Origin: Devosia sp.
GTDB taxonomy: Bacteria > Pseudomonadota > Alphaproteobacteria > Rhizobiales > Devosiaceae
DNA length: 64,000 bases
Direction of reading: 5' to 3'
Assembly (NCBI GenBank): GCA_017794705.1
Contig: CP051235.1
Location: 311,010-375,009, forward strand
Made by a program: the position numbers and the translations under genes. This document shows, in pieces, positions 18,723 through 20,901 of this stretch. The notes beneath the pieces are model-generated. The model was not told the DNA's origin and searched no databases. It saw only the letters and a program-made list of their open reading frames with translations. The number at the start of each line of letters is the position of its first letter. The first letter of the stretch is position 1.

Positions 18723-18797
18723 GCGCCCGTAGCTCAGTGGTAGAGCATCCGACTTTTAATCGGCAGGTCGAAGGTTCAAATCCTTCCGGGCGTACCA
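18723..18797 (+). tRNA. tRNA-Lys (anticodon UUU)
   Basis: A complete 75-nt tRNA with encoded CCA. The acceptor stem GCGCCCG (18723-18729) pairs with CGGGCGT (one G-U pair). The D-arm is GCTC...GAGC, the anticodon loop CTTTTAA gives anticodon TTT, and the T-arm is GAAGG-TTCAAAT-CCTTC. The outermost anticodon-stem position (T27/C43) appears mismatched, which is a minor oddity. Its reverse complement produces false protein-like translations containing KDLNLRPAD. Confidence 0.96.
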
Positions 18798-19232
18798 ATT
18801 CTGGCTGTGAATAATCGGAAGACATGCTGAACGGCCCGGCAGGACATGTCCTCCGGGATTTGCTCCAGTCTTTGCTCCCGTTGAACGAGAAGCGGCGCGG
18901 CGGGACTTCGTCCCGGTGCGGTATTCCGCGAATGAGAAGGTGGGACTAATTCCCGCCGACGCGAACGCGTTTTTATCGCGGGGCCTCTGAGCAAGAGGGT
19001 TTGCCATTCGACCATAGGTCTCATGGCCTTCTCGGTTCAAATCCTTCCACCGGAAGGATTTGTCCGGCAATGCCGGCACACCTCGAAGTCCCGCGACCCG
19101 GGACAGGACGGCTCCTGCCCCGAACGAACCCCTTCCGCGACGTTCCGTTACGCCTCGCTCCGGAAAGGTGAAGGCAGTATGGCACGGTTTGTTGGGGCGG
19201 GGATAAGTTCTGCGCGCACCTTTTGCTCCGTT
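18798..19232. repeat. Gene-free stretch dense in inverted repeats between tRNA-Lys and pgi
   Basis: No believable gene is present in these 435 nt. It contains a run of short inverted repeats: AGGACATGTCCT (18841-18852) flanked by CCCG/CGGG; CGGGAC-TTC-GTCCCG (18901-18915); GCGG-TATT-CCGC (18918-18929); a 7-bp stem at 18939-18957; CCTCT/AGAGG (18984-18998); GCCAT-tc-GACC-ata-GGTC-tc-ATGGC (19003-19027); an 11-bp stem with a 3-nt loop (19038-19062); CCGGC/GCCGG (19064-19076); and GTCCCG/CGGGAC (19088-19104). The 15-nt GGTTCAAATCCTTCC of the tRNA-Lys T-arm recurs exactly at 19034-19048. It could be a structured RNA, a palindromic-repeat mosaic or the scar of a tRNA-targeted element. Confidence 0.6.
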
Positions 19233-20870
19233 CTAACTCCGCAACCGGTGGTAGTGCGCCAGAAGGCCCGATGTTGAGCTATCGTGGCCGTTGCCACGGT
19301 CTTCGCCGGAGACTTTGGGGAGGATGGCTTTTGCGAGTTGCTTGCCGAGTTCGACGCCCCATTGGTCGAAGGAATTGATGTTCCAGATGGTGCCCTGGAC
19401 GAAGACCTTGTGTTCGTAGAGCGCGATGAGCATGCCGAGTGTTGCCGGGTCAAGCTTGCGGTAGAGAAGCGTGTTCGAGGGGCGATTGCCGGGGAATATC
19501 TTGTGAGGTTTCAGCGCCTTGATCGCCGCAGGTTTCAGGCCGGCGGCTTTCAATTCGGTTTCAACTTCGTCGCCAGTCTTGCCGAGCATCAGGGCTTCGG
19601 ATTGCGCGAGGCAGTTGGCGACCAGTTTCTGATGGTGTTGGCCCATTTCCTCGTGCGGGTTGGAGGCGACGAGAAAATCGCAGGGGATCACCGAGGTGCC
19701 CTGGTGAATGAGCTGGTAGAAGGCGTGCTGGCCGTTGGTGCCTGGCTCGCCCCAGACCACGGGGCCGGTGTCGTAATCGACCGGCATGCCGTCGAGCATG
19801 ACGGATTTGCCGTTCGATTCCATGTCCTGCTGTTGCAGGTATGCGGCGAAGCGGCTCATGCGCTGGTCGTAGGGCAAGACCGCATGTGTGGCGAAGCCCC
19901 AGGCGTTGCGGTACCAGATGCCCAACAGGCCCATGATGACAGGGAAGTTTTCTTCCAGCGGGACCGTGAGGAAGTGGCTGTCCATCGCTGCGGCGCCCTT
20001 GAGGAACAGCGCAAAATTGTCATAGCCAACGGCCAGCGCGACTGGCAGGCCGATTGAGGACCAAACGGAGTAGCGGCCGCCGACCCAATCCCAGAAACCG
20101 AAGATGCGATCCTCAGAAATGCCGAAACTGGCGCAGGCTTCAAGGTTTGTGGACACGGCGGCGAAATGATCGCCTACGGCTTTTTCGCCCAGTGCTTTTG
20201 CCAGCCAGGCGCGGGCGGAATGGGCATTGGTCATGGTTTCGTCGGTGGTGAAGGTCTTGGACGCGACAATGAAAAGCGTGGTTTTCGGGTCGAGGCGTTT
20301 CAGCGTATCGTGCATGTGGGCGCCATCAACGTTTGAAACGTAGTGCGCGCGCAGGTTCTTGCGGGTGTAGGGCTCAAGGGCAGCCGTGACCATGGCGGGG
20401 CCGAGGTCCGAGCCGCCGATACCGATGTTGACGATATCTGTGAACGGTTCGCCGGTGGCGCCCTTGATGGAGCCATCACGAACCTGACCCACGAATTTTT
20501 TCATGCGCGACAGGACCTCGCGGACCTGGGGCATGACATCCTTGCTGTCGACCTTGACCGGCTCGGTGCCGCCGTAGCGCAGGGCCATGTGCATGACCGA
20601 GCGGCCCTCGGTGACGTTGATGGGTTCGCCGGCCCACATGGCGTCGCGGCGCGCTTCAACGCCGGCGGCGCGGGCAAGATCAAACAGGGCGGCCATCGCC
20701 TGTTCGTCGATCCGGTTCTTGGAATAGTCCAGCAGCATGGAGCCACAGGTGGCCGAGTATTTGCGGAACCGCTGGCTGTCGCCGGCAAACAGTTTGCGCA
20801 TGCTGGTGTCGGCAAGACGCTTTTGATGCGCCATCATTGCATTGAGAACGGACTTGCGATCAGACGCCAT
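19233..20870 (-). CDS. pgi: Glucose-6-phosphate isomerase
   Basis: Interconverts glucose-6-phosphate and fructose-6-phosphate, so it feeds the GlmS substrate. It has 545 residues from the ATG at 20870 ([20 protein letters not shown]); a GTG three codons upstream is also in frame. PGI signatures are present: [19 protein letters not shown] near residue 148, [17 protein letters not shown] near 205, and the C-terminal motif [14 protein letters not shown] with the catalytic Lys. Full length. It is 31 nt downstream of tgt on the same strand and may be the last gene of the gyrA...tgt run. Its 3' end borders the palindrome-rich region. Confidence 0.97.
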
Positions 20871-20901
20871 TGGTTGCACCCCGGTTTCTTGACGTTTGGA
20901 T

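Follow-up and report, generated by a model that had tools for sequence, protein, structure and literature searches.

The run of hairpins between the tRNA-Lys and pgi genes of Devosia sp. is one interspersed repeat inserted in another. The inner member of this nested pair probably belongs to a family of structured elements of mRNA 3′ ends, found in Alphaproteobacteria and mainly in Hyphomicrobiales. Throughout, "the window" means the whole stretch of 64,000 nucleotides that was analysed.

Two nested repeats account for the hairpins next to pgi

Between tRNA-Lys and pgi no credible gene was found, in agreement with the first-pass annotation, and the main inverted repeats that it had listed were recovered in the sequence (coordinates in Table 1). 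These are the 12-nt palindrome AGGACATGTCCT flanked by CCCGG and CCGGG, the 6-bp stem with a TTC loop, the 11-bp stem with a 3-nt loop, a 5-bp stem, and the "9-bp stem" with a 2×2 loop, which reads GCCAT-TC-GACC-ATA-GGTC-TC-ATGGC in the forward direction. It had overlooked a long-range helix joining 19028-19036 to 19080-19088, as well as the two-repeat make-up of the region. Neither a sigma-70-like promoter nor a terminator was called there.

The comparison with dinucleotide shuffles that had been proposed gave z = −3.96 on the plus strand and −5.00 on the minus strand, with 0 of 100 shuffles folding as well. Most of this excess came from positions 19003-19088 (z = −5.65 on the minus strand, where one structure dominates, and −5.13 on the plus strand; 0 of 200 shuffles). 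When positions 18800-19240 were searched against the own genome (3.3 Mb in a single contig), likewise a first-pass suggestion, two interleaved sets of matches emerged. One set defines an outer repeat, O, which spans 18823-19210 in the window and is present in four copies; three of the four follow a tRNA-Lys, a tRNA-Trp or the end of an ORF, and diverged relatives occur in several other Devosiaceae. Two copies of O are uninterrupted and carry no insertion (GAGCAAAGGTGATCCCG at C1:2819072). The inner element, I, of the window lies directly before TCCCG, and the junction reads GAGCAAGAGGGTTT[GCCATTCG...CCTCGAAG]TCCCGCG with I in brackets. The copy of O at C1:2072713 contains another inner element at a different site, in the loop of the hairpin GGTGGGAC-TATT-TCCCGCC. 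Once I was removed, O of the window folded with z of about −2 to −2.6. An uninterrupted copy elsewhere gave z of about 0, no better than shuffles, and O was therefore rejected as a structured RNA in its own right.

The earlier proposal, either a non-coding RNA with structure or a mosaic of palindromic repeats, thus holds in part on each side: the mosaic consists of two nested interspersed repeats, and the inner one shows compensatory changes, but it is a multicopy element, usually downstream of a gene and in sense with it, rather than a free-standing small RNA gene.

Table 1. Features of the region between tRNA-Lys and pgi (window positions), and further copies of O in the same genome (contig C1)
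Feature	Position	Strand	Evidence or remark
tRNA-Lys	18723-18797	+	converges with pgi
pgi	19233-20879	-	Pfam PGI, E=2e-219
Outer repeat O, left part	18823-19002	+	84-86% match to three other own-genome copies
Outer repeat O, right part after insertion	19089-19210	+	80-87% identity to the same three copies
Other copies of O	C1:540385-540692; C1:2819072-2819383; C1:2072713-2073067		
Perfect palindrome AGGACATGTCCT in O	18841-18852	.	not conserved among O copies
Hairpin CGGGAC-TTC-GTCCCG in O	18901-18915	.	nearly invariant in all O copies and relatives
Hairpin GGTGGGAC-TAAT-TCCCGCC in O	18939-18957	.	loop holds an inner element in another O copy
Inner element I, 86 nt	19003-19088	- (sense to pgi)	full-length hit of covariance model R1 when the whole own genome is searched, E=1.2e-14; fold z −5.65
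P2 5′ arm of I (CTTCGAGGT), with GA of tandem mismatch	19080-19088	-	pairs with 19028-19036
P4 hairpin of I, CCGGC-ATT-GCCGG	19064-19076	-	fold; pairs covary
P3 hairpin of I, 11 bp and triloop	19038-19062	-	fold; 9 of 11 pairs double-changed among copies
P2 3′ arm of I (ACCGAGAAG)	19028-19036	-	fold, covariation
H1 hairpin of I, GCCAT-GA-GACC-TAT-GGTC-GA-ATGGC, tandem G.A	19003-19027	-	covariation, kept G.A

The structure of the inner element is under selection

In the minus-strand reading of the window, the long-range helix P2 encloses hairpins P4 and P3 and is followed by the terminal hairpin H1. The family consensus, in the same reading, is P2a CUUCGAGCC; P4; P3 AAAUCNNUCC-RGU-GGANNGAUUU; P2b GGCGAGAAG; and H1 GCCAUGAGAGC-UAU-GCUCGAAUGGC, the unit being 72-87 nt long with several helices. 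Both P2 and H1 contain tandem G.A mismatches, which form a stable nucleic-acid motif when placed between a pyrimidine and a purine. The DNA pattern of the conserved hairpin had at least 119 matches in named genomes, nearly all of them Devosia, Cucumibacter or unclassified relatives. With model R1, 14-18 copies were counted in the own genome. Genomes of other Devosiaceae contained as many as 68 or more, and the remaining families of the order almost none.

The compensatory changes expected of a structured RNA, a check also put forward at first pass, were abundant. Among 28 aligned copies, 16 pairs had changed on both sides, giving 93 double-changed cells against 26 after shuffling, and very few double changes were scored in a control where the partner was slid by one base. 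An alignment of 128 Devosiaceae copies yielded 29 such pairs and 467 double-changed cells, against 111 after shuffling. The window copy itself differs from the consensus by compensatory changes in P2 (GGT/ACC for GCC/GGC) and in H1 (GACC/GGTC for GAGC/GCTC). The tandem G.A and A.G of H1 were kept in 119 and 123 of about 125 copies; read on the opposite strand, these positions would be U.C mismatches. The structure of the element is under selection.

In the sense reading, G.U pairs outnumber A.C (59 versus 31, p=0.004), a leaning that falls short of proof, since it was the model that fitted the alignment. G.U pairs are nevertheless rare (59 of 4171 cells), unlike in many RNAs, and this leaves room for selection on DNA structure; selection on a single-stranded DNA form of the element is possible.

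One sequence coincidence was followed and discarded. A 15-nt stretch, GGTTCAAATCCTTCC, is common to the T arm of tRNA-Lys (18772-18786) and to P3 of the inner element (19035-19049), as a tRNA-derived or attachment-site remnant might show. This match is at chance level (E about 1), and other copies of the element vary at the 15-mer, with compensation.

Copies lie downstream of genes and often include the stop codon

To place copies relative to genes, a simple codon-usage gene caller was applied to fetched loci, and 151 copies were placed. They follow a gene on the same strand in 103 cases and a gene on the opposite strand in 48 (p=9e-6). The stop codon of that gene fell at the start of the element (−15 to +5 nt) in 46 of the 103 same-strand copies; at the H1 end, taken as a control, only 3 of 79 convergent stops were so placed (Fisher p=7e-11). 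The family thus has an orientation bias and an overlap with stop codons that is limited to a single end and strand. The majority of the placed copies lie off a stop codon.

Where there is overlap, the stop codon often sits inside P2a, as C-TAG, CT-TGA, CT-TAA or CTT-TGA (hyphen before the stop), and in many of these copies P2b matches exactly. The genes upstream are real and often housekeeping: their products include gyrB, ychF, dnaJ, gmk, clpX, trigger factor, rpoZ and prs, together with peptidyl-prolyl isomerases, solute-binding proteins, folE and dnaE. Downstream of several copies a distinct hairpin resembling a terminator, with a T-run, was found, which suggests that the element should be part of the mRNA; H1 itself is, on average, followed by no T-run.

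The window copy lies 144 nt past the pgi stop and is therefore outside the 15-nt range. Given this distance and its nesting in O, it may be no more than a passenger here, or may simply stabilise the 3′-UTR, and any role on pgi is conjectural.

A variant outside Devosiaceae, and elements at orthologous stops

The first clear match outside Devosiaceae was on the stop codon of cox3. Model R2, made of P3 and H1 only, then picked up the element in 39 genomes from other families within the order, and the full model R3, searched over the class, added copies in five genomes of four other families. Within the order the variant is spread over many families; in the rest of the class it is sporadic. Its P2a is G-TGA-GNNNN and its P2b NNNNCGAAC; in many copies the TGA is the stop of the upstream gene, and its GA faces the GA of CGAAC. 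A long ORF ended in or beside P2 in 25 of 40 copies. Among 28 aligned variant copies the G and A of the TGA faced A and G in all 28, and 19 pairs were double-changed (120 cells versus 33 shuffled).

Copies at the class level gave 95 double-changed cells against 26 after shuffling, and the P2 G.A pairs were kept in 25 of 26. The TGA at position 2 of P2a ended an ORF of at least 80 codons in 11 of these 26 copies, with a few more on a neighbouring stop; counted over every GTGAG site in those loci, the elements' own among them, the figure was 26 of 107. This stop test is weaker than the Devosiaceae one.

An element is present at lepA in several genomes; the P2 helices differ there, and two are fully matched. 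At lepA of relative G168 (L333:1098-1187), P2 (GTGAGGAAC/GTGACGAAC) would hold two successive G.A tandems. Orthologous stops were compared at ychF, where the element was found on the stop codon in six genomes and is absent from most relatives. The six P2 helices are CTTGAGGTC/GACCTCAAG, CTTAAGCGC/GCGCTTAAG, CTTAAGACC/GGTCTTAAG, CTTAGCGTC/GACGCTAAG (twice) and CTTAGAGGC/GGCGAGAAG (imperfect). All three stops, TGA, TAA and TAG, occur among them, and the partner strand of P2 matches in five of six. In the ychF tree the six carriers fall in one clade, which also holds strains without the element (L228, L229). This pattern may reflect either one old insertion followed by compensation or several insertions.

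Possible function, and competing explanations

Taken from sequence comparison, the most likely identity of the inner element is a REP-like mRNA element of 3′-UTRs, which would act as RNA. A ribosome positioned at the stop codon would hold P2 open; on termination it would free the stop codon, and P2 would close beside H1. The resulting compact 3′ structure would shield the message from 3′-to-5′ exonucleases, feed back on termination, or both, as enterobacterial REPs close to stop codons do. Copies would spread by some copying process, probably not RAYT. A bolder version, which we hold only tentatively, is that the copies form a class of cis-acting RNAs across Alphaproteobacteria that build the stop codon of the gene into their own structure: its U would be paired, and its GA would make the tandem G.A at the heart of the closing helix. 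On many housekeeping genes, the folding of the 3′ end of the message would then be tied to termination and release of the ribosome.

The most serious competitor, in our view rather unlikely, is that the element is a purely selfish miniature mobile DNA whose hairpins serve as single-stranded DNA signals for a transposase, stop codons being merely a tolerated insertion site. The copies are indeed interspersed, nested in O at two different places and sometimes arranged in tandem arrays; the element is present or absent at the same ychF stop, and G.U pairs are few. A bare insertion signal, however, does not predict that P2 pairing is kept after the stop codon has changed at an orthologous site, nor that stop overlap is limited to one end and one strand. 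Inspection by eye of the two insertions of an inner element in O, whose flanks are diverged, showed neither a duplicated target nor terminal inverted repeats. RAYT mobilisation was rejected, as no match to PF01797 (Y1/RAYT transposase) was found in the own genome or in the copy-rich relatives G013 and G014. The paired changes might also be an unselected mutational by-product, template-switch correction of quasi-palindromes, which would account for the scarcity of G.U intermediates and would be helped by the closeness of hairpin arms. We find this hard to credit: correction should remove exactly the tandem G.A of H1, which survives in about 95% of copies, and the arms of P2 match at orthologous stops although more than 50 nt apart.

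Two further readings concern the kind of RNA. The stable single fold and strong covariation would suit a free-standing small RNA gene or a trans-acting structured RNA. The missing sigma-70-like promoter, terminator call and Rfam match, the many copies per genome and the overlap with stop codons argue for a cis element instead, and make this reading very improbable. Equally little weight is given to a transcription terminator, intrinsic or bidirectional, serving the convergent tRNA-Lys and pgi genes. The element lies between them and O carries CGCGAACGCGTTTTT, but no terminator was called in this region, H1 on average lacks a T-run, and several stop-adjacent copies are followed by their own hairpin with a T-run.

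Relation to known repeats

Rfam 15 contained no family matching above the gathering threshold, and none even at permissive thresholds. A search of open papers yielded no description of the family, and an earlier report in the subscription literature is possible. The family is apparently large and undescribed.

The closest parallel is with enterobacterial REPs, which are described in PMC12306157 and PMC5082802 as multicopy palindromes downstream of genes. Where a REP lies no more than 15 nt from a stop codon, it stalls ribosomes and sets off trans-translation, while those elsewhere stabilise mRNA against 3′-to-5′ decay (same sources). As described there, REPs are single hairpins of 20-40 nt, whereas the inner element is an 80-nt multi-helix unit with a long-range helix. 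It also differs by the nucleotides shared with the stop codon, the tandem G.A, and the absence of a GTAG tag and of any RAYT found. For GTAG-REPs and REPtrons in particular, no conserved GTAG lies beside H1, and the associated RAYT gene was not found in the own genome, G013 or G014. The resemblance to REPs acting at stop codons is one of working mode, not of ancestry, and concerns those same-strand copies (46 of 103) that lie no more than 15 nt from the stop codon, not the window copy.

Among alphaproteobacterial repeats, Br-REP1 and Br-REP2 of Bradyrhizobium are multi-palindrome repeats of 3′-UTRs for which transcripts have been seen; the Br-REP1 consensus printed in the available part of PMC5082802 (CCGGAATCTCGAGATTCCGG) resembles no part of the inner element, and that part of the article reports no stop-codon overlap. 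CGTC-REPs are likewise alphaproteobacterial, form RNA-capable hairpins and have no known dedicated transposase (PMC3733652). Their defining marks are a CGTC tag left unpaired, a stem of 8-9 bp that opens with two A-T pairs, and a CCA tail (PMC3733652), none of which is found in H1, which begins with GCC and has variable flanks. By defining tags and shapes, the inner element is thus neither a GTAG nor a CGTC REP, and its working mode may be that of a stop-codon-proximal REP.

RIME, ABC, Bru-RS and the Caulobacter intergenic repeats (CIR) are intergenic palindromic mosaics of about 100 bp in related bacteria. Their likeness to the inner element is by description only, and matches to the type-1 model R1 are virtually limited to Devosiaceae.

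Whether REP-like repeats are junk, mobile DNA or regulators is a long-standing argument. The present family offers a clean test of this question, with a precise structure, strong covariation, and nucleotides that the element shares with the stop codons of genes including gyrB, ychF, lepA and cox3; orthologous genes with and without the element allow comparison. If the element does act at termination, it would represent a widespread structural link between the stop codon and mRNA fate that is in no current Rfam family.

Sequence context of the copies

The inner element often nests in other repeats. In relative G013 (L048-L056), most inner elements lie within a palindrome different from O, CCCCTCACCCGGC..GACCTC[element]CCCCCAAAGGGAGAGGTG. 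Palindromes similar to TTTCACGTGAA, which resemble parS, were seen on the P2 side of several copies (L087:5576-5656, and the flanks of L102, L137 and L167). The right end of O (19194-19210, GGGGCGGGGATAAGTT; reverse AACTTATCCCCGCCCC) contains a short exact motif that recurs at at least 10 other sites of the own genome, and sequence similar to TTATCCCCGC directly flanks several inner elements at other loci (L045, L064, L073, L190). Finally, at L087:5504-5656, L176:7570-7876, L060 and L333, either just H1 or the entire element is repeated head to tail in tandem arrays; in these arrays, usually only the copy nearest the stop codon has the full P2 arm.
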